The notes under the pieces are model-generated. The model made no database searches and had not been told where the DNA came from. It saw nothing but the letters and a program-made list of their open reading frames with translations. Positions 6,504 through 15,509 of a DNA stretch of 38,876 bases are shown here, piece by piece. The stretch's first letter is position 1; every line of letters begins with the position of its first letter. This DNA is from an uncultured Ilumatobacter sp. (lineage in GTDB: Bacteria > Actinomycetota > Acidimicrobiia > Acidimicrobiales > Ilumatobacteraceae), in the NCBI GenBank assembly GCA_938044705.1, contig CALIOL010000191.1, positions 1-38,876 on the forward strand. Reading direction: 5' to 3'. The translations under genes and the position numbers were made by a program.

Positions 6504-7003
6504 GTTCCGTCCTCGGAGTCCGCGTCCTCGCTCATCGCTGGTCGCCCCGGGGTGCCCGGTGGGACGCGGGCGAGCGTCCACCGACCGATCGCATCGTCGC
6601 CGGCGGCGAGATGGTTGGCGACATGGGCGTGCAGACATTTGACACCGATGCGCGTGCCGCCGACACCTCCAGAGGGACGCGGGCCGACGTGGCCCGCGTC
6701 GATGGCGGCGTCGCGTTCTCGCTCATAGCGCCGATGGATGTCGATGATCGTGTCATCGTCGAGCTCCGCCTCGACCTCGTCGACCGCTCCGGCCGACTCG
6801 ATCCGGCTGACTGCTTTCACGAGTTCTTCGCCCACGAGGTAGTAGCGAGTCGGCATCGGCGTGCCGTCGTCGAGGAACGGCGCGTTGCGCAGCACCACCG
6901 GATCGCCCGTCGCGTCGCGTGTCACGACTTCGAACGCACCGCGCGGTTCGCGGCCGAGCAGCTCGGCTACTCGCTCGCGATCGCTGCCGACCGGCTCGCC
7001 CAT
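6500..7003 (-). CDS. DUF501 family protein
   Basis: A 167-residue DUF501 protein. The family signature is clear: MPTRYYLVG (about 50-58), then GGTRIGVKCLHAHVANHL and AAGDDAIGRW. The conserved Cys and His residues in KCLHAHVANH could form a binding site, but no biochemical role is established that I know of. In many actinobacteria DUF501 sits between an FtsB/DivIC gene and ppx. Here the ppx-like gene follows, but the upstream neighbour is CoxG, and the FtsB-like gene is 13 kb away. The start ATG at 7003 shares one base with the CoxG stop (TGATG), and the stop overlaps the next ATG (ATGA), so the protein is made within a coupled polycistron. The C-terminal 20 residues are acidic and variable-looking. 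Confidence 0.93.
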   Translation of the reverse strand: MGEPVGSDRERVAELLGREPRGAFEVVTRDATGDPVVLRNAPFLDDGTPMPTRYYLVGEELVKAVSRIESAGAVDEVEAELDDDTIIDIHRRYERERDAAIDAGHVGPRPSGGVGGTRIGVKCLHAHVANHLAAGDDAIGRWTLARVPPGTPGRPAMSEDADSEDGT

Positions 7004-7701
7004 CAGCTCCGGCGGCGGAGGAAGAACAAGATGACGAGGAGCGCAGCGACAGCGGGTGCCGCGCGCTTCAGGATCGAGCTTCCGCTGACGTCCATCAGGT
7101 CGATCGGGTCCGCAGCGGGACCGTTGATCTTGCGGACGTTCTCATCGGGTTCGGCTGCTCCGGTGTCCGGAGCGGCAGCTGGTTCGGCCGGCACGTCCTC
7201 AGCGGGGGCTTCCTCCGCTGGGGCGGTCGCTCCGTCCTCATCGATCATCGTGTTGAGGTTGTCGGCGAACTGGTCGATCAACTTGGTACTCACGTCGCCG
7301 AGGATGCCTCGTCCGAATTGCGCGACCTTGCCGGTGATGTGCAGGTCCGTTGTGACGACCACCTTCGTGCTGGTGGGGGACAGGCTCTCGGCGTGTGCGG
7401 TGATGTCAGCAGAAGCGTTGCCGCGCCCGCCGGTGTCGCGACCCTTGCCTTTGAGCACGGTGCGGTAGTTCTCGTCGTCCTTCTCCACGAAGTGAGCGTC
7501 GCCCTTGAACTGCGTCGAGATCGCGCCGAGCTTGACCTTGACCACGCCGCGATACACCTCGCCTCGTTCCGGATCTTGGGCGATCTCCTGCAATTCGGCG
7601 CCAGGCAGACACGGAGCGATCTTCTCGACGTTCGTAATGATCGGCCAGGCCTCGTCAATCGGTCGATTGACGGTGAACTCGTTGTTCAGTTGCTCTGCCA
7701 T
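7003..7701 (-). CDS. coxG: CoxG-like SRPBCC protein with C-terminal membrane anchor
   Basis: A 232-residue protein of the carbon monoxide dehydrogenase subunit G (CoxG/SRPBCC) family. The N-terminal 150 residues form the START-like fold: NRPIDEAWPIITNVEKIAPC, then CLPGAEL, VYRGVVKVKLG, and GRGILGDVSTKLIDQFADNL. A long Ala/Pro/Glu linker (about 160-205) leads to a single predicted membrane helix (AAPAVAALLVILFF) and an RRRS tail. In CO-oxidizing bacteria CoxG helps recruit the hydroxylase to the membrane, which fits this anchor. The start ATG at 7701 has GGAGGA nine bases upstream; the longer reading from 7749 lies over the end of the MocA-like gene and was rejected. It overlaps the upstream MocA-like gene by 16 bases. 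Confidence 0.9.
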   Translation of the reverse strand: MAEQLNNEFTVNRPIDEAWPIITNVEKIAPCLPGAELQEIAQDPERGEVYRGVVKVKLGAISTQFKGDAHFVEKDDENYRTVLKGKGRDTGGRGNASADITAHAESLSPTSTKVVVTTDLHITGKVAQFGRGILGDVSTKLIDQFADNLNTMIDEDGATAPAEEAPAEDVPAEPAAAPDTGAAEPDENVRKINGPAADPIDLMDVSGSSILKRAAPAVAALLVILFFLRRRS

Positions 7702-8315
7702 CTCGTCAGATCCTCCACGGTATCGATGTCGTTCGGTGAACCTGTGCACGGTACTTCAACCACGAGGTCCGGACGAAGACGCATCAGGCCCCGCGCCCCT
7801 TCGTCGCCGCTTCGTTCCAGCATTTCCCAGACGCTGCGGTGCAGCGCGACGGGGTTGGCCCGGCGTCCGTCGTACGTTGCAACAGCGATTGCAGCGCCGG
7901 CGGTCGCGGCCTCGGCCACTGCGCGCCATGCGCTTGCCTCGATCCCGGGTTGGTCGGCAAGGCCGATCACCACGACGTGTGCATCGTCGTGATCGGCCGA
8001 CGTGATGCCGGCTCGTACCGAGGTCATCTGGCCGCGCTCCCAGTCGTCGTTGTGAACGATGCGCACGTCGACGCGGCCGGCGAGGCCGAGATCGTCGGCA
8101 TTCAGGCGCCCGGTGACCACGGTGACACGGCCGATGTCGGCGTCGACCGCCGCAGCGAGTGAGCGAGCGATCACCGTCTCAGGTGGTCGTGTACGGTCTC
8201 TTGACAGCTCGGCGGTCAACTTGTGACCGACGTCACGGAACCGGGATCCGCTCCCTCCAGCGAGCAACACCGGGACGACGACCGCCTTGGTGTCTGGCGC
8301 ATCGTCCCAGGTCAC
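7686..8315 (-). CDS. MocA/MobA-like molybdenum cofactor nucleotidyltransferase
   Basis: A protein of about 209 residues of the NTP-transferase group that includes MocA (molybdopterin cytidylyltransferase). Visible landmarks are the nucleotide loop LLAGGSGSRF (17-26), HNDDWERGQMTSVRAG (88-103, the N..W..G..SS segment), the metal-binding LADQPG (119-124), GRRANPV (150-156, a variant of GxxGHPV), GDEGARGL (170-177) and NDIDTVEDL near the end. MocA adds CMP to molybdopterin to make the MCD cofactor of xanthine-oxidase-type hydroxylases. Adjacent CoxG and the nearby CoxDE/XdhC genes support that role over MobA or the PQQ-like relatives. The start is a GTG at 8315 without a clear ribosome site; sequence upstream is AT-richer and non-coding in character. 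Confidence 0.85.
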   Translation of the reverse strand: MTWDDAPDTKAVVVPVLLAGGSGSRFRDVGHKLTAELSRDRTRPPETVIARSLAAAVDADIGRVTVVTGRLNADDLGLAGRVDVRIVHNDDWERGQMTSVRAGITSADHDDAHVVVIGLADQPGIEASAWRAVAEAATAGAAIAVATYDGRRANPVALHRSVWEMLERSGDEGARGLMRLRPDLVVEVPCTGSPNDIDTVEDLTRWQSN

Positions 8316-8386
8316 GAGGCCGCGCGGTCGGAATCGTGTGACGACATGTGTGTAGTTTGCATGACGAAAAGAGCAACGAGATGTCG

Positions 8387-8415
8387 GTCGGATGTCGAAG
8401 TTTAGACATTCCGAC
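8387..8415. promoter_or_regulatory. Imperfect inverted repeat in the mocA/NlpC divergent gap
   Basis: GTCGGATGTC (8387-8396) is followed, after eight bases, by GACATTCCGAC (8405-8415), complementary except for one extra base. It lies in an AT-richer part of the 217-base gap between divergent genes. It may be an operator or part of a transcript leader. Confidence 0.3.
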
Positions 8416-8431
8416 TGAAGTGTTTCGGTTT

Positions 8432-8459
8432 CGTGACGATACGTTACCCGTCCGTCACG
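8432..8459. promoter_or_regulatory. CGTGACG ... CGTCACG inverted repeat before the NlpC/P60 gene
   Basis: CGTGACG (8432-8438) and CGTCACG (8453-8459) form a perfect seven-base inverted repeat with 14 bases between, 74 bases before the NlpC/P60 ATG. A related CGTGATGACG follows at 8465-8474. The centre-to-centre distance is about two helical turns, which suits a dimer or a pair of dimers. No promoter boxes are certain. Confidence 0.35.
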
Positions 8460-8532
8460 AACTGTCGTGATGACGAGATCAGGCCGCACTGCTGCGTCAA
8501 CCGATCTCCTGCCGAACGGTTTCTTTCTCGAC

Positions 8533-9216
8533 ATGCCTCACTCCCTCACCCTGTCTTCCCGTCTGCGCCACCGAGCGCGCATCGGCGCACTCATCGTGGC
8601 GTCGTTCGGCTCGTTCGTCGCCGTCACCGCGGTCGACGCCGGCACGGTCGCTGCCGAGTCAGCCGAGCTGCCTGTCAACCAGCTCGCTCCCGAGATCACC
8701 ACCGCCGCATCTGCAGCTGTTGCCGCACTCGATGCCTACAACGCCACGGGGTCGGTCGAAGACGAGCGCACCCTTGCCTGGCACCGAGCGATCACCGCCC
8801 GCTACACCGCACGGCAGCTCGGCTACGACGAACTCGCGATGGTCGATGCGTGGAGCAGCGCTCCGATCGGCCACCAGCGGGCTGTGCTCGGAGCACTCAC
8901 GCAGGTCGGCGTGCCATACCGCACGAACACCAGCGTCGAAGGCGAAGGCTTCGATTGCTCGGGACTCACCTACTACGCGTGGCAGGGCTCCGGCGTCGAG
9001 CTGTTCCGCCAGAGTGGATCGCAGATCTCCGAAGCCAAGACGCTTCCCCGCGAGTCGGCCAAGGCCGGGGACCTGGTGCACTACCCGGGACACGTCATGC
9101 TCTACCTCGGAGTCGGCGACGCCATCCTGCACTCGGTGAATACGGGTCGGACCGTCGAAATCGACACGATCAGCCGCGACAGCGTCACCTTCGGCGACCC
9201 GACCGTCTCCTCCTGA
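8533..9216 (+). CDS. Secreted NlpC/P60 peptidoglycan endopeptidase
   Basis: A 227-residue exported cysteine peptidase. Residues 1-45 look like a signal peptide: basic RLRHRAR, a hydrophobic core (IGALIVASFGSFVAVTAV) and a likely signal peptidase site after VDA. A helical spacer follows, then the NlpC/P60 domain (about 112-227). That domain has the catalytic FDCSGLTYYAW (Cys142), the PGHVMLYLG motif (His187), and His200 in AILHS as the third polar residue. Such enzymes cut gamma-D-Glu-diaminopimelate links in peptidoglycan, usually during cell separation or wall turnover. The ATG at 8533 was chosen because it places the signal peptide at the N-terminus; earlier starts at 8467/8470 would add 21-22 residues. 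No good ribosome site is seen for any start. It converges on the response regulator. Confidence 0.92.
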   Translation: MPHSLTLSSRLRHRARIGALIVASFGSFVAVTAVDAGTVAAESAELPVNQLAPEITTAASAAVAALDAYNATGSVEDERTLAWHRAITARYTARQLGYDELAMVDAWSSAPIGHQRAVLGALTQVGVPYRTNTSVEGEGFDCSGLTYYAWQGSGVELFRQSGSQISEAKTLPRESAKAGDLVHYPGHVMLYLGVGDAILHSVNTGRTVEIDTISRDSVTFGDPTVSS

Positions 9217-9254: not shown

Positions 9255-9890
9255 TCAGAGCAGTCGACGATCGGCTGCCCAGCGCGCCAGCTCGTTGCGG
9301 TTCGACAGCTGAAGCTTGCGCAACACCGCACTGGCGTGGGATTCGACGGTCTTGATGGAGATCGTCAACCGGCGGGCGATCTCCTTGTACGCGAAACCAC
9401 GGGCCAGCAGGCGCATCACTTCGCGCTCTCGCGGGGTGAGTTGATCGAGGTCCGGGTCGGCCTCGGGAAGCGTGAGTTGCCCGGCGAACGCATCCAGCAC
9501 GAACCCGGCGAGTTGCGGTGAGAACACCGCATCGCCCTCGGCGACCCGCGTGACGGCATCGATGACCTGCTCGGCATCGCTCGCCTTCGTGAGGTAGCCC
9601 CGTGCGCCAGCGCGGATCACCGAGATGACGTCCTCGGCTTCGTCTGACACCGAAAGCGCCAGGAAGGACGTGGTGACCCCTCGGGCGAGGGTTTGGGCGA
9701 TCACGTCGACAGCGGTGCCGCTTGGCAGGTGCACGTCGCACACCACGACGTCTGGGCGAGACGTGGCGATCATCTCGCTGGCATCGGGCACGTCATCGGC
9801 TTCGCCGACGATCTCGAAGTGCGTCGACAAGGTGCTGCGCAGGCCGGCGCGCAGCAGATCGTGGTCGTCGACCAGGGCGACGCGGATCAT
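9255..9890 (-). CDS. NarL/LuxR-type response regulator
   Basis: A 211-residue two-component response regulator. The receiver domain (1-120) has acidic pair Asp8/Asp9, phospho-acceptor Asp52 in VCDVHLPSG, Ser80 in LALS and Lys102 in GYLTKAS. The LuxR-type helix-turn-helix (about 150-205) reads LTPREREVMRLLARG then YKEIARRLTISIKTVESH. Its ATG overlaps the stop of the histidine kinase gene in ATGA, so the two are a coupled pair. Order and kinase architecture resemble LiaSR/VraSR-type envelope-stress systems. By analogy the regulator probably controls the divergent PspC gene and its own operon through the repeat cluster at 11153-11192; that is inference. Confidence 0.95.
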   Translation of the reverse strand: MIRVALVDDHDLLRAGLRSTLSTHFEIVGEADDVPDASEMIATSRPDVVVCDVHLPSGTAVDVIAQTLARGVTTSFLALSVSDEAEDVISVIRAGARGYLTKASDAEQVIDAVTRVAEGDAVFSPQLAGFVLDAFAGQLTLPEADPDLDQLTPREREVMRLLARGFAYKEIARRLTISIKTVESHASAVLRKLQLSNRNELARWAADRRLL

Positions 9891-11107
9891 CGAGCGACCT
9901 TGCCTGCGTCCGAGACCCTGAGCGGGAGGGACAACTCGACTTCGGTTCCCCGTCCGAGCTCGGATGTCACGGTCGCCGTGCCACCGGCACGGCGCATCCG
10001 TCCGACGATCGACTCGGCGACTCCGCGCCGATCGCTGGCGACGTCGTCGGGGTCGAAGCCCGACCCTTCATCACGGACGAACACTTCGACCACGTCCACG
10101 CCACGGTCGGCGAACACGCTGATCTGATCGGCGCCCGAATGGCGTGCTGCGTTGAACATCGCTTCTCGGGTTGCGTCGATCAACGGAGCGACGTCCTCTG
10201 CATCGAGGTCGTCGGTATCGCCGACCACCACGATGTCGAACACGGCGTCGGTGTGTTGTTCGACGTCGGCCGCTGCCTGTTCGAGCGCCGGTCGAAGCCG
10301 GTGGCCTTCGTCGTCGCTCGATGGCCGGTTGTACAGCCATCCTCTGAGTTCGCGTTCCTGGCGCCGAGCGAGCCGTCGTGTGCTCACCGGGTCGTCGCAC
10401 TGCTGTTGGATGAGTGTCAGGGTCTGAAGCACCGAATCGTGGAGGTGGGCGTTGATCCGCGCCCGCTCGTCCGACCGGGTTCGCTCCAGCCGCTCCGAGT
10501 CGAGGTCGCGGCTCATGCGCACAACGGACGGTGCAGCAACGATCGCCACACCGCCTGCGACCGTCACGAGAACGATCAGCGCAAGCACCGCATCGACGAC
10601 CTCGATCCGACTGAACGCAAACGTGGCGATGCCTGCGATCGCGACCACGACGCCGGCCACGACGCGAACCACGACGATGCTGCCGTCCTCGCCTGACCGC
10701 GTCCAGGCGATCAACATTCCTGACAAGACGAATCCGACCGGCCAGACCACGAGGGCGAACACCGAGCCCGTGAGCGGCAGGAGTCCGACCATCAGACCCA
10801 CCGTGATGAGCGCTACTGCGGCCACCCGGTGAGATGGCGTCGCAGCCTTCGGGCGAGGCACATAGCGGCCTTCTTGGCGGGAGCTGGCAAAGGCGAGCGC
10901 AGCCCAGGCCACTGCGTAGAGCACGAGGCCCCACCCGCCGACGACAGCGAGTGCCACGAAGGCCACCCGAATCACGACGGATTGGACTCCGATCTCGCGC
11001 GCAATCGCTGCAGCAACTCCGCCGACCCATCGAGCATCGCGGTCGAGTCGAGGAACCTGCCATCTCGGTGCCGCGACGGCCGACGGTGGGAACGGCGGCG
11101 ACTGCAT
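9887..11107 (-). CDS. PspC-domain sensor histidine kinase (HisKA_3 type)
   Basis: A membrane histidine kinase of about 406 residues. An N-terminal PspC domain (about 19-80) reads RWVGGVAAAIAREIGVQ followed by a hydrophobic helix. Four or more further membrane segments follow up to about 195. The dimerization box ARINAHLHDSVLQTLTLIQ holds the phospho-acceptor His223. The ATPase domain shows the N-box (DATREAMFNAARHSGADQ) and the G-box DEGSGFDPDD, then GRGTEVELSLPL. This HisKA_3 type pairs with NarL-class regulators, and one follows with an ATGA overlap. The ATG at 11107 was preferred because the extra 12 codons from ATG 11143 have poor codon use, but the 11143 start has a better ribosome site, so the N-terminus is uncertain. 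The signal is probably envelope or membrane stress. Confidence 0.94.
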   Translation of the reverse strand: MQSPPFPPSAVAAPRWQVPRLDRDARWVGGVAAAIAREIGVQSVVIRVAFVALAVVGGWGLVLYAVAWAALAFASSRQEGRYVPRPKAATPSHRVAAVALITVGLMVGLLPLTGSVFALVVWPVGFVLSGMLIAWTRSGEDGSIVVVRVVAGVVVAIAGIATFAFSRIEVVDAVLALIVLVTVAGGVAIVAAPSVVRMSRDLDSERLERTRSDERARINAHLHDSVLQTLTLIQQQCDDPVSTRRLARRQERELRGWLYNRPSSDDEGHRLRPALEQAAADVEQHTDAVFDIVVVGDTDDLDAEDVAPLIDATREAMFNAARHSGADQISVFADRGVDVVEVFVRDEGSGFDPDDVASDRRGVAESIVGRMRRAGGTATVTSELGRGTEVELSLPLRVSDAGKVAR

Positions 11108-11152
11108 CGGCACAGCATGACATGCGGACTGTCGAGTCCGCATCGGGGACCT

Positions 11153-11192
11153 ACCCTGAGATGACCCTGAGATCGGTGTCAGGGGTCAGGGT
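11153..11192. promoter_or_regulatory. Tandem and inverted ACCCTGA/TCAGGGT operator cluster
   Basis: ACCCTGA occurs at 11153-11159 and 11164-11170, 11 bases apart (one helical turn). The reverse-complement half-site occurs as TCAGGG at 11179-11184 and TCAGGGT at 11186-11192. The array is therefore nearly symmetric about 11173. It fills the gap between the divergent kinase and PspC genes, the expected place for a response-regulator site controlling both. Which protein binds is inferred. Confidence 0.6.
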
Positions 11193-11248
11193 GCGATCCG
11201 TGAAAGTCCCAATGGTGGGCGCCGGCTGCGGTGCAGAAGATGGATCGC

Positions 11249-12400
11249 ATGACCAACGAACATGACATCGACGCCCACAACGACGACAACGAGACGGGAG
11301 GAGCGACGACCACCATGGATCCGGAGAGCTCCTCCAGTGAGCCGCCGCCACCGGCGTCACCGCCTCCTCCCGGCTCGACCCCGCCGCCGGCCGGGGGTGT
11401 GCCGCCACGCATGCGACCGTCCCAACCGAACGGGCTCACTCGAGATCCGTACAGCGCGCTCGGCGGCGTTGCTTCGGGCATTGCGCACCGATACGGACTG
11501 AGCACGGCGCTCGTCCGGCTCGTGTTCGTCGTGGTGCTGCTCGCGACGTTCTTCTTCGCCCTTCCGGTCTATCTCGCAGCGTGGGCGATCATCCCCAGAG
11601 CGAGAGTGTGGCCGCCAGAAGCACTGCGGTTGCCCGGACAGAAGTTCTCCAGCCGTGATCTCGGCGTGATCGCCCTGATCGGCGGGCTCGTTGCCTTCCT
11701 GATCTTCGGCGTTGACGGCGTCGGGTCGGTGCTCGTGGCGCTGGCCTTCGTGACCGCAGGTGTCGCGCTGCTGTTGCAGCACGAGCGCAACCCCGCGCCA
11801 CCGGCACCAGACGCTGTCGTCGCTTCGTATGACGCAGCGCCCCCGACGGCGCCAGTTGGGCAACCCGTGCCGCCTCGCAGCGCAAAGCGGAAGTGGTTCC
11901 TCGGGCTGGGGATCGGTGCGGTCGTGCTGTTCTTCGCGTCGATCATCGCGGTGCCGTTCGCGATATTCGCCTGGGGGGATCTCGACGTCGATTTCGATTC
12001 GGGGACCTTCGACTTCCGTTTCGACGACGACCTCGCGTTGATCGATATCGAAGCCACTGACCTCGACGACCTCCCGGAGCCGATCGACGCTCAGGCCGGT
12101 GACATCAGCATCGACCTGTCCGGCATCGACCTCTCCGAGTTCGAAGCACTGGACGAGCCAGCGGTGCTCGACATCGAACTCGGGACGGGCGATGTGGACA
12201 TCGTGCTCCCCGAAGGACTCGAGTACACGATCGACGCGGATGTCGCCAACGGAGACATCGACACCGACCTCGATGGCGTGTCGCCGACGGTCGACCGTTC
12301 GAATCGCGGCGAGGTGGTCACCGTCTCGAATGGCGAAGCGGACTTCGATCTGCGTATCGACCTGCGTCGCGGTGACATCAACATCGAGACCGACAGCTGA
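11249..12400 (+). CDS. PspC-domain membrane protein with acidic beta-rich C-terminus
   Basis: About 383 residues. The first 65 are acidic then proline-rich and probably cytoplasmic. A PspC domain (about 66-118) has YSALGGVASGIAHRYGLS followed by a membrane helix and LPVYLAAWAIIPR. Two more hydrophobic segments lie at about 139-177, and another at 216-242 (WFLGLGIGAVVLFFASIIAV). The C-terminal 140 residues are acidic and repetitive in strand-like units (DISIDLSGIDL, LDIELGTGDVDIVLPEG, DFDLRIDLRRGDINIE), resembling DUF4097/LiaF toast-rack folds, probably outside the membrane. Together with the divergent PspC kinase and regulator it forms a LiaFSR-like module, in which this protein may modulate the kinase. 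Starts at 11231 (GTG), 11240 and 11249 are possible; none has a strong ribosome site. Confidence 0.88.
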   Translation: MTNEHDIDAHNDDNETGGATTTMDPESSSSEPPPPASPPPPGSTPPPAGGVPPRMRPSQPNGLTRDPYSALGGVASGIAHRYGLSTALVRLVFVVVLLATFFFALPVYLAAWAIIPRARVWPPEALRLPGQKFSSRDLGVIALIGGLVAFLIFGVDGVGSVLVALAFVTAGVALLLQHERNPAPPAPDAVVASYDAAPPTAPVGQPVPPRSAKRKWFLGLGIGAVVLFFASIIAVPFAIFAWGDLDVDFDSGTFDFRFDDDLALIDIEATDLDDLPEPIDAQAGDISIDLSGIDLSEFEALDEPAVLDIELGTGDVDIVLPEGLEYTIDADVANGDIDTDLDGVSPTVDRSNRGEVVTVSNGEADFDLRIDLRRGDINIETDS

Positions 12401-13145: not shown

Positions 13146-13982
13146 TCACGAGTGGATCGGTCCCGATGAGTCCTTCAAGCTGGGGACGCCTTTGCCGGTG
13201 CGCGCTGCGATGATCTCGGCGCAGATACTCACAGCGGTCTCCTCGGGCGTCCGAGCGCCCAGATCGAGCCCGATCGGCGACATCAGGCGATCGAGCCCCG
13301 CTTGGTCCACGCCGACCTCGGCAAGTCGTTGCATCCGCTTGTCATGGGTCTTGCGACTGCCCATCACGCCGATGTAGCCGACGCGAGTCGCCAACGCTCC
13401 CTGCACCGCTGGCACGTCGAACTTCGGGTCGTGAGTGAGGATGCAGACAGCGTCACGCGGACCCAACTCGCCGCCCAGTTCGTCGAAGATCGGGGTCGGC
13501 CAGGTGACCCGGACTGCGTCGGCCATCGGGAACCGGCGCTTGGTGGCAAACACCTCGCGGGCATCGCACACGGTGACGCGGTAGCCGAGCACTTTGGCGA
13601 CACGAGCGAGCGCAGCGGTGAAGTCGACCGCCCCGAAGATCCACATCTGCGGAGGTGGTGCGTGCGACTCGACGAAGACTCGAATCGTCGGCTGGTCGAC
13701 CAGGTCCTCAGGCGTGGTCTGCCCCTCGGGTCCATAGGAACGCACGCCAGATCGAGCAGCTTCCAACTCGGCGATGGCATCGCGCGCGACGACGCGATCC
13801 AGCTCGGGGTGGCCCAGCGAGCCGAGGGGCTCCGCCCCGTCGGTCGTGACGAGCAGTTTGGCGCCGACGCTGATGTCTCCGATCGCACCTTCGATCACGG
13901 TTGCCAGAGCAACCGGTTCTTCGGTGCGCAAGAGTTCGGCATATCGATCGAACACCGGCGAATCGGGAGGCGTCGAGCTCAC
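13146..13982 (-). CDS. XdhC/CoxF family maturation factor (Rossmann-domain form)
   Basis: A 278-residue XdhC-family protein. XdhC-type factors bind the molybdenum cofactor, help sulfurate it and insert it into xanthine-oxidase-type enzymes. The N-terminal part (about 10-90) resembles the XdhC N domain (VALATVIEGAIGDISVGAKLL, then GSLGHPELDRVVARDA) but lacks the usual GGCVE cysteine. The C-terminal Rossmann domain has MWIFGAVDFTAALARVAKVLG, VCDAREVFAT, TWP, ILTHDPKFDVPAVQGAL, YIGVMGSRKTHDKR and the end LDLGARTPEETAVSICAEII. The initiating GTG at 13982 overlaps the stop of the preceding XdhC-N gene (GTGA), so the two are made together. It is last in the coxD-coxE-xdhC run. Confidence 0.92.
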   Translation of the reverse strand: MSSTPPDSPVFDRYAELLRTEEPVALATVIEGAIGDISVGAKLLVTTDGAEPLGSLGHPELDRVVARDAIAELEAARSGVRSYGPEGQTTPEDLVDQPTIRVFVESHAPPPQMWIFGAVDFTAALARVAKVLGYRVTVCDAREVFATKRRFPMADAVRVTWPTPIFDELGGELGPRDAVCILTHDPKFDVPAVQGALATRVGYIGVMGSRKTHDKRMQRLAEVGVDQAGLDRLMSPIGLDLGARTPEETAVSICAEIIAARTGKGVPSLKDSSGPIHS

Positions 13983-14296
13983 CAGGCCAGTTCCTCGATG
14001 AAGAGATGGATCGTTCCACCGCACGTCAACCCGACAGCGAACGCCTCGTCGTCGGAGTAGCCGAACGTGACGACACGAGGCTCCGTCGAGCCGTCGAGGA
14101 TCGACAGGGCTTCGCCGACCACGGCGCCTTCGACGCATCCGCCGCTCACGCTGCCAGCGACCTCACCGGACTCGGTCACCGCCATGGCGGCGCCGGGCAG
14201 TCGCGGACCCGACCCTTCGATGTCGACGACTCGCGCAACGGCGATTCGCTCACCGGCGCGCTGCCATCGGTCGATGTCGTTCAACAGTTCCTTCAT
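13979..14296 (-). CDS. Short XdhC/CoxI N-domain protein
   Basis: A 105-residue protein consisting of the XdhC/CoxI N-terminal domain (PF02625-type) alone. It has VARVVDIEGSGPRLPGAAMA, a central GSVSGGCVEGAVVGEAL with the conserved Cys54, and a C-terminal FAVGLTCGGTIHLFIE with Cys92. The ATG at 14296 has a GGGGA ribosome-like site. It is not a broken fragment of the next gene: that gene has its own, diverged copy of this domain and its own start in a GTGA overlap. The short protein may supply the cysteine-bearing half of a two-protein maturation factor; this is inference. CoxE ends 52 bases upstream on the same strand. Confidence 0.88.
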   Translation of the reverse strand: MKELLNDIDRWQRAGERIAVARVVDIEGSGPRLPGAAMAVTESGEVAGSVSGGCVEGAVVGEALSILDGSTEPRVVTFGYSDDEAFAVGLTCGGTIHLFIEELAW

Positions 14297-14348: not shown

Positions 14349-15509
14349 TCATTCGCTGATCACGCGGCACAACTCTTCCATCGCCGAGACCGAATGGCCC
14401 TCGACGAACGCATCGAGGTGGGGGAGCGCAGCTGCCATTCCCCGTGCCAACGGTGCATACCCAGGGGTGACCTTCAGCGGGTTCACCCACACCAGCCGAT
14501 GCGTGACGCGATGGAGGCGTTCCATCTGCGCATCCAGAACCTCGGGATCGCCGCGGTCCCAGCCGTCGGAGAGCACGACCACGATCGAGTTACGCGCCAG
14601 CCCGCGAACGCCCCACTCGTCGTTGAACTCCCGCAGCCCGTCACCGAGCCGAGTGCCGCCACTCCAGTCGATGACCCGCTCGGACGCCGCGGCGAGTGCG
14701 ACGTCGGGGTCGCGGCTGTCGAGCTCGCGCGTGATGCGTGTGAGTCGCGTGCCCAAGGCGAACGCTTCGACCTTCTGGCGGCCGGCCACCGCCGCGTGGA
14801 CGAACCGCAGCAGGGCTCGCGCATAAGGCTCCATCGAGCCGCTGACGTCGAGCAGCAGCACCAAGCGCCGCAACCGGGTGCGTGGCTGGCGGTGGTGTCG
14901 CTCGATCGGTTCGCCGCCCGAGCGGATCGCCGCCTGCATCGTGCGCCTGATATCGGGGCGGGTGGTCTGGCGTGCCGAGGGCCCGAGGCGCAGCGAGGCC
15001 CGCGGTGACCCCACGAGCCGCAGGTTCGACATCAACTCCTGAGCGAGCACGAGCTCGTCGGAGCTGTACTGAGCGAAATCCTTGTGGCGAAGCACTTCGG
15101 TGGTCGAGAAGCGCAGCTCGATGGTCGGGTCGTCGTTCGCGTCGGCGGTCTCCGGACCGTCGTCGCTCTCGTCGTCTTCGGCATCGACAGCAATGGTGAT
15201 CGAGAGCGGGTCGTCCTCTTCGGCGTCTTCGCCCGTCGAGCGGCGATGTTCGAAGAACACCTTGAACGCTCGGTCGAACACCTCGATGTCTTCGGGGCGA
15301 CGAGCCAGCGTTGCGCGACCGGACCAGTAGACGCCGTCGCGATCGTCCAGACCGACAGCGCAGAGTGCTTCGGCAAACGTGTGCGTGCAGCTCGTGGGCA
15401 CCTTCATGCCGGCACCTCGCAGCACACGGGTGAACGCCACAGCGATTTCAGCCGAGTCGCTGCGTTGCGGTGTCGACCGGTCAGCAGTCGATGGAGGCGC
15501 CCAATTCAT
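14349..15509 (-). CDS. coxE: CoxE-like von Willebrand factor A protein
   Basis: A 386-residue CoxE-family VWA protein, which works with the CoxD ATPase in building the copper/molybdenum centre of CO dehydrogenase or relatives. The N-terminal 90 residues are helical (AEIAVAFTRVLRGAGMKV, then YWSGRATLARRPEDIEVFDR). An acidic, variable linker follows (about 92-128). The VWA domain starts near 213 and has the metal-ion site DVSGSM (221-226), a Thr in SGGTRLGDG and Asp in LSDGWDRGDP, so all five usual metal ligands appear present. The ATG at 15509 has GGAG eight bases upstream. CoxD ends 19 bases before this start, and the XdhC pair follows, giving the common order coxD-coxE-xdhC. Confidence 0.94.
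   Translation of the reverse strand: MNWAPPSTADRSTPQRSDSAEIAVAFTRVLRGAGMKVPTSCTHTFAEALCAVGLDDRDGVYWSGRATLARRPEDIEVFDRAFKVFFEHRRSTGEDAEEDDPLSITIAVDAEDDESDDGPETADANDDPTIELRFSTTEVLRHKDFAQYSSDELVLAQELMSNLRLVGSPRASLRLGPSARQTTRPDIRRTMQAAIRSGGEPIERHHRQPRTRLRRLVLLLDVSGSMEPYARALLRFVHAAVAGRQKVEAFALGTRLTRITRELDSRDPDVALAAASERVIDWSGGTRLGDGLREFNDEWGVRGLARNSIVVVLSDGWDRGDPEVLDAQMERLHRVTHRLVWVNPLKVTPGYAPLARGMAAALPHLDAFVEGHSVSAMEELCRVISE

Follow-up and report, generated by a model that had tools for sequence, protein, structure and literature searches.

Background

What purpose is served by the TCAGGG-type repeats that crowd the gap between two divergently oriented genes of an uncultured Ilumatobacter sp.? The gap lies in a stretch of 38,876 nucleotides, analysed here as a whole and called the window; its source genome (G000) is 82% complete, its 369 contigs adding up to 3.88 Mb. 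On one side of the array are the genes for a PspC-domain sensor histidine kinase (9887..11107, minus strand; Pfam PspC and HATPase_c) and a NarL/LuxR-type response regulator (9255..9890, minus strand; Pfam Response_reg and GerE), the latter being the presumed binding protein. On the other side is the divergent gene for a PspC/DUF4097 membrane protein (11249..12400, plus strand; Pfam PspC and DUF4097) in a position like that of LiaF or EsrI. PspC-kinase systems are widespread in Actinomycetota, and one described member was found, in Corynebacterium. The repeats are very probably the DNA site through which an envelope-stress sensor controls its own genes.

Results

Anatomy of the array

Two copies of ACCCTGA (11153-11159 and 11164-11170, with starts 11 bp apart), TCAGGG (11179-11184) and TCAGGGT (11186-11192) are all present, as an earlier note on this DNA had described. 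The cluster itself is real, whereas the limits of 11153-11192 given to it there were too narrow, since the operator covers about 72 bp and not 40. The array in helical phase extends from TCGGGG at 11143 to TCCCAATG, which ends at 11214, and its half-sites are TCGGGG (11143), CCCTGA (11154), CCCTGA (11165), TCAGGG (11186), TCCGTG (11197) and TCCCAA (11207), in steps of 11, 11, 21, 11 and 10. This in-phase array is mirror-symmetric, with pair centres at 11177.5, 11178 and 11178 and the centre of the gap at 11178. The search pattern formerly proposed, ACCCTGA-N11-TCAGGGT, is at odds with these spacings: the TCAGGG copies on the right (11179 and 11186) are 7 bp apart, and the partners in phase across the middle of the array (11165 and 11186) are 21 bp apart.

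The array can be divided into a predicted kinase-side operator, TCAGGG-N5-TCAGGG-N5-CCCCGATG (11141..11170, minus strand), with three half-sites 11 bp apart, delimited from the sequence and from model R1 (see below), and a predicted PspC-side operator, TCAGGG-N5-TCCGTG-N4-TCCCAATG (11186..11214, plus strand), in which the first half-site is exact and the other two are degenerate. An extra TCAGGG half-site (11179..11184, plus strand) lies 7 bp before the next copy and out of helical phase. The kinase promoter also contains, in its spacer, a perfect inverted repeat without strand, TGCGGACT-N4-AGTCCGCA (11123..11142). It reads TGCGGACT-GTCG-AGTCCGCA and is flanked by the kinase-side operator and the -10 box of that promoter; the spacer that holds it showed no conservation in 44 aligned modules.

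Four TCAGGG/CCCTGA hexamers lie inside 40 bp (11154-11191). None of 500 dinucleotide shuffles of the window reached four hexamers per 40 bp, and the maximum of three was obtained once. The window contains ACCCTGA nine times, a count that 1 of 100 shuffles reached (shuffle mean 3.48); the hexamer TCAGGG/CCCTGA is not in excess window-wide (14 against a shuffle mean of 16.9).

Genes of the locus

Among the solved structures, those nearest to the regulator are NarL, VraR and DevR, and the HLHDSVLQ box of the kinase is kept in 13 aligned kinases. None of the kinase, the regulator and the divergent gene reached an NCBIfam cut-off among the matches listed. The kinase gene probably starts at the ATG 11107-11105 and not at the mechanically assigned ATG at 11143, because the former lies 33 nt past the end of the operator, which is the conserved distance. 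Similarly, the start of the PspC gene is probably the ATG at 11249 and not the mechanical GTG at 11231, because the match to model R1 ends exactly at the ATG 11249-11251.

A gene for a secreted NlpC/P60 peptidase (8467-9216) adjoins the regulator gene, and no operator was found ahead of it among the best model matches. The stress module is flanked by genes for CoxG (7003-7749), a MobA-like nucleotidyltransferase (7686-8534), XdhC/CoxI (13146-14138) and a CoxE-type protein (14349-15509), so that it interrupts a cluster of the carbon-monoxide-dehydrogenase maturation type.

Conservation upstream of homologous kinases

Kinase homologues were detected in 43 of 60 relatives (E<=0.001, partial matches counted), and those from named genomes are the best 80 of at least 570 matches, close ones among the matches listed being Acidimicrobiia MAGs (L031 and L033). 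We compared 94 gaps, made up of 14 of the 30 loci from the search of the 60 relatives and all 80 named-genome loci; loci with matches starting inside the kinase (L012, L015 and L017) and weaker or partial ones (L018-L030) were omitted. L068 contributes 146 bp of upstream sequence only, and the record of the window itself (L001) begins at 11144, so that its own kinase-side repeat is cut in the gap counts.

In these gaps, nearly all of them from Actinomycetota, TCAGGG/CCCTGA ranks first among all 6-mers. The earlier note had staked its reading on conservation of the array in orthologous gaps, and such conservation was found: 85 of the 94 gaps contain the hexamer, against a mean of 22.2 and a maximum of 33 in 100 shuffles (20.7 in the 20-shuffle ranking). 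Hexamer pairs at a distance of 10 or 11 bp are present in 33/94 gaps, with a shuffle mean of 0.01. The most frequent arrangements are direct repeats spaced by 11 bp (16) and inverted pairs spaced by 10 (13), 11 (7) and 22 (7). The exact hexamer is absent from 9/94 gaps and the dyad, at the cut-offs used, from 20/94. The gaps are not phylogenetically independent, because they include the best 80 of at least 570 loci and are rich in Streptomyces and Nocardioides. According to the record titles, they span Acidimicrobiia, Propionibacteriales, Pseudonocardiales, Streptomycetales, Mycobacteriales and Micrococcales.

At 96/96 loci a regulator homologue lies on the strand of the kinase, within 400 nt in 66 and in overlapping stop-to-stop frames in 30, and its helix-turn-helix is nearly invariant across the homologues of these loci; a divergent PspC open reading frame was detected at 81/96. 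Three records titled Polyangiaceae (L032), Dormiibacterota (L042) and Acidobacteria (L077) all carry the kinase and two of them the same motif, which may reflect either mis-binned contigs or transfer.

Promoter grammar in relatives

The best-conserved element in relatives is TCAGGG-N4-CCCCGATG, also written TCAGGG-N4-CCCCGA(TG), an imperfect inverted repeat of 16 bp that lies over the -35 region. Often an extra TCAGGG-like half-site lies 11 bp upstream of it, with its C, G and G each kept in 29-30 of 44 modules. Start codons concentrate 33 and 34 nt past the dyad (ATG counts of 27 and 17 for 88 dyads at 61 loci), and a second ATG peak, at 25 nt, stems from the ATG that the -10 region itself contains (CGATGG). 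In the 44 non-redundant modules, the A and T of the -10 box are kept in at least 90%, and no -35 hexamer is evident under the conserved inverted repeat. As the start codon lies about 7 nt past the -10 box, the messages would be leaderless; the promoters are thus apparently of the leaderless kind.

With up to 2 mismatches, the TCAGGG..CCCGATG dyad (11-bp spacing only) was found 80 times in 75 kb of gap, counted on both strands and distributed over 58 gaps, against 29 times in 1.29 Mb of flanks, which are mostly coding. When ATG or GTG at 33 or 34 nt was included, 55 dyads (in 45 gaps) stood against 2 in the same 1.29 Mb. This comparison is partly circular, because the element and the start distance were defined on the same gaps.

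The window follows this grammar imperfectly, as its kinase-side repeat has one extra spacer base (17 bp) and its PspC-side repeat three mismatches. The distances to the start codons are kept: the ATG at 11107 lies 33 nt past the end of the kinase-side repeat and the ATG at 11249 lies 34 nt past that of the PspC-side repeat. The putative -10 boxes are CATGCT (11114..11119, minus strand), which is 22-27 nt past the end of the operator and precedes the ATG by 6 nt, and, from the module alignment and the model, GAAGAT (11236..11241, plus strand). Model R1, built from 44 modules of which none is from this genome, was scored over the window with filters off. The two window promoters rank first and second of 48 matches: 11136-11169 (minus strand, 11.9 bits, E 0.013), which spans the operator and not the -10 box, and 11207-11251 (plus strand, 11.6 bits, E 0.017), which spans only the stretch from the right half-site to the ATG 11249-11251. 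The third match has 8.4 bits.

Candidate regulon

The suggestion that the half-site could be used to find the regulon holds in relatives when the full promoter grammar is applied; in the own genome, which is incomplete, neither repeat patterns nor model R1 gave a second convincing site. Over the whole of G000, the model gave 9 matches at E<=1, the best at 0.148, and the two that were displayed lie elsewhere than in the window; the window sites (11.9 and 11.6 bits) are not expected to reach E 1 at whole-genome scale. These whole-genome matches are weak, and the window site is thus convincing by comparison and not by score alone. A pattern fitted to the kinase side, including the start codon, had one exact match genome-wide, the site at 11141-11170, and 48 others with 3 mismatches; its spacing was chosen after the site had been seen. 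When up to 3 mismatches were allowed, the direct-repeat pattern matched 229 times, against 104 in the reversed control, and is exact only in the window; the palindrome with up to 2 mismatches gave 69 against 34, none of them exact.

In 19 chosen genomes, model R1 found 33 sites at E<=1e-3, of which 19 fall within the system's divergent gap and 14 outside it. None of these 14 was part of the model. ABC-transporter ATPase genes, all with Pfam ABC_tran, follow seven of the outside sites (G058 C190:18882, G051 C162, G142 1303214, G038 C42, G059 C287, G297 C22 and G050 C128). By its coordinates, the ABC gene of G058 lies just past the kinase and regulator genes, and those of G059 and G297 resemble each other closely and may not count as independent. 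The other outside sites precede genes for a DUF2807 lipoprotein-like protein (G058 C18), a DUF4870 protein (G418 C202), a DUF2157 membrane protein (G001 C151) and a membrane protein that matches no Pfam family (G028 C82), or have no convincing gene downstream (G058 C22, G049 C15 and G049 C17). Five genomes (G142, G418, G374, G297 and G241) entered this search after an exact direct-repeat search had found sites there, and three outside sites (G142 1303214, G418 C202 and G297 C22) were thereby pre-selected; with these removed, ABC ATPases follow 5/11 outside sites. On the assumption that ABC ATPase genes have a frequency of 3%, the binomial p is 6e-8 for 7/14 and 1e-5 for 5/11.

The exact dyad was present in 20/35 genomes with the kinase (E<=1e-40) and in 22/114 without it (Fisher p 3.3e-5; 149 genomes, uncorrected for genome size), leaving 15/35 kinase-positive genomes in which it is absent. 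Of the 50 exact dyads, 8 are found beside the kinase, no more than about 0.4 kb upstream of it. By itself the dyad is no diagnostic marker, because 22/114 kinase-negative genomes carry it. The exact 11-bp direct repeat occurs at 21 places in 19/396 genomes, with 1 in the reversed control; 7 of these places fall within the PspC gap, 2 stand before ABC ATPases, 1 before a DUF4870 gene and 1 before a gene for a secreted protein, and the remaining 10/21 are unexplained or inside open reading frames. Palindrome sites occur in 38/396 genomes, and the PspC gap holds 2 of the 30 loci fetched. Single repeats, direct or palindromic, were rejected as a regulon probe, being too unspecific alone. The pattern with a start codon, at 2 mismatches, matched 99 times in 16 genomes and 13 times in the control; most of the 99 look like chance occurrences within coding sequence, and a fair comparison would need a control other than the reversed one.

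Two further observations were made in these searches. Variant modules, TGGGGG..CCCCCGATG with a start codon, lie near second kinase homologues in L303 (G001 C151), G050 C104:2133 and G040 C29:91170, and look as if they belonged to a paralogous system with a shifted half-site. In G075, a genome of the same class as that of the window and without the kinase at E<=1e-40, an exact 11-bp direct repeat (L167, 1501-1518) lies upstream of a phosphofructokinase-like gene.

Discussion

The anatomy of the array, its conservation and its recurrence before the ABC-transporter genes of relatives are observed facts of the sequences. Their most natural explanation, which we hold with good confidence, would be that the array is an autoregulatory operator shared by the divergent genes of an EsrISR/LiaFSR-like envelope-stress three-component system. 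Likewise, the half-site conserved in 85 of 94 orthologous gaps argues for the autoregulated two-component operator suspected in the earlier note. Envelope stress would lead the kinase to phosphorylate the regulator, as is usual for the family, and regulator dimers would then bind TCAGGG half-sites that recur at intervals of about 11 bp on one side of the helix. The one closest to each gene would overlap the -35 region, some 21 nt upstream of the -10 box, and from that place the regulator would recruit RNA polymerase to both promoters. These two divergent, apparently leaderless promoters would serve the start codons at 11107 (minus strand) and 11249 (plus strand). In this scheme we infer the identity of the binding protein, its contact with DNA, the dependence on phosphorylation, the sign of activation and leaderless transcription.

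A different regulator, for example one of the OmpR family, might bind the array while the NarL-type neighbour acts elsewhere. OmpR-family regulators prefer direct repeats of 11 bp, which is indeed the commonest spacing here (16 pairs); furthermore, some exact repeats precede unrelated genes, one of them near an OmpR-type regulator gene (L182), and the dyad is also found in the 22 kinase-negative genomes. However, inverted pairs are nearly as common (13 at 10 bp and 7 at 11 bp), the best-conserved element is the inverted repeat over the -35 region, and the NarL-type regulator, the only DNA-binding protein that was searched for, accompanies the kinase at all 96 loci, and we therefore consider another regulator quite unlikely. 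We regard it as rather improbable that the NarL-type regulator binds the array mainly as a repressor in a negative feedback loop. The sites do overlap the promoter, the sign of regulation is not readable from a sequence, and EsrISR is reported, in the portion of PMC9960051 used here, to repress nlpC under stress. Against this, the conserved place over the -35 region without an evident -35 hexamer would suit activation, and the same module precedes ABC exporters. Such exporters are usually induced by stress systems.

A role of the repeats as a hairpin in RNA or DNA, a terminator or attenuator, in place of an operator is very improbable: ACCCTGA and TCAGGGT can pair, and a perfect inverted repeat is present at 11123-11142, but both predicted transcription starts are downstream of the array, direct-repeat copies also occur, and the spacing keeps the helical phase. 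The lack of a window-wide excess of the hexamer would agree with a cluster arisen by chance, to which we give practically no probability, since four hexamers per 40 bp did not arise in any of the 500 shuffles and the conservation in the gaps refutes it.

Returning to the shared autoregulatory operator, two-component autoregulation is an ordinary kind of feature, and here the promoter grammar is unusually clear and widely conserved. We lean towards the view that the PspC-kinase system has retained one grammar, with TCAGGG phased at 11 bp, the inverted repeat over -35 and a leaderless start 33-34 nt on, all the way from Acidimicrobiia to Streptomyces, Nocardioides, Amycolatopsis and Rhodococcus, and that this grammar identifies an ancestral core regulon consisting of the system itself, ABC exporters and small envelope proteins. 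If so, the PspC-kinase stress regulon would be directly readable from the genomes of uncultured Actinomycetota. The grammar would correct two gene starts and make the regulon predictable; a conserved operator that fixes both promoter and start codon could serve regulon and gene-start prediction in unculturable genomes, and it supplies short, defined DNA fragments suited to a binding test.

Several known systems can be compared with that of the window. In MacRS of Streptomyces, MacS is the best NCBIfam match of the kinase; with 101.7 bits against a cut-off of 300, the kinase is ruled out as MacS, and a MacR-type regulator was dismissed together with it. The MacR site, a TGAGTAC inverted repeat, differs from TCAGGG. 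An MprA-type regulator was also dismissed, the C. glutamicum motif being TKTTAAGAAM in the excerpt of PMC12113857.

The combination that characterizes EsrISR and LiaFSR, a PspC- or LiaS-type kinase with a NarL-type regulator, was found in the window from the Pfam domains and the HLHDSVLQ box, and the divergent PspC/DUF4097 protein in the place of LiaF/EsrI had no LiaF family match. The LiaFSR/VraSR/CesSR systems of Firmicutes resemble the window in their NarL-type regulator, VraR being among the nearest solved structures. According to the part of PMC4447274 drawn on, the lactococcal CesR motif is TCAGHCTnnAGDCTGA and S. mutans LiaR sites contain a 16-bp inverted repeat. The inverted repeat of the relatives shares the 16-bp geometry and the TCAG ends of that CesR site, whereas its half-site core is GGG in place of HCT. 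The LiaR/CesR site as given there was therefore rejected for the window, where the core is GGG/CCC and the kinase-side repeat is 17 bp. The same excerpt reports that S. mutans LiaR does not bind its own liaFSR promoter (PMC4447274). Unlike the systems of Firmicutes, that of the window has divergent symmetric promoters, phased half-sites and a PspC domain in the kinase. A literature search on the TCAGGG motif gave, among the entries listed, no description of it; the motif may already be in print with EsrISR.

The EsrISR three-component system of Corynebacterium glutamicum was reportedly described by Kleine et al. in 2017. The accounts of it drawn on here, each in part, are PMC7283102, PMC9960051, PMC9239133 and PMC10963414. 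Histidine kinases with a PspC domain are described as common in Actinobacteriota in the portion consulted of PMC9239133. The excerpt of PMC9960051 names nlpC as an EsrISR target repressed under stress in C. glutamicum, which the NlpC/P60 gene beside the regulator of the window recalls. The partner protein of the window, the putative inhibitor, combines PspC with DUF4097, unlike EsrISR. As far as these partial accounts go, EsrISR resembles the window in having a kinase with an N-terminal PspC domain, a paired regulator and a membrane protein partner. In C. glutamicum its direct targets are described as its own locus, heat-shock genes, ABC transporters and proteins that are membrane-bound or secreted (PMC7283102, in part), and the ABC-transporter targets of the relatives, 7 of the 14 outside sites, parallel the regulon as described there. 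The system of the window likely belongs to EsrISR proper.
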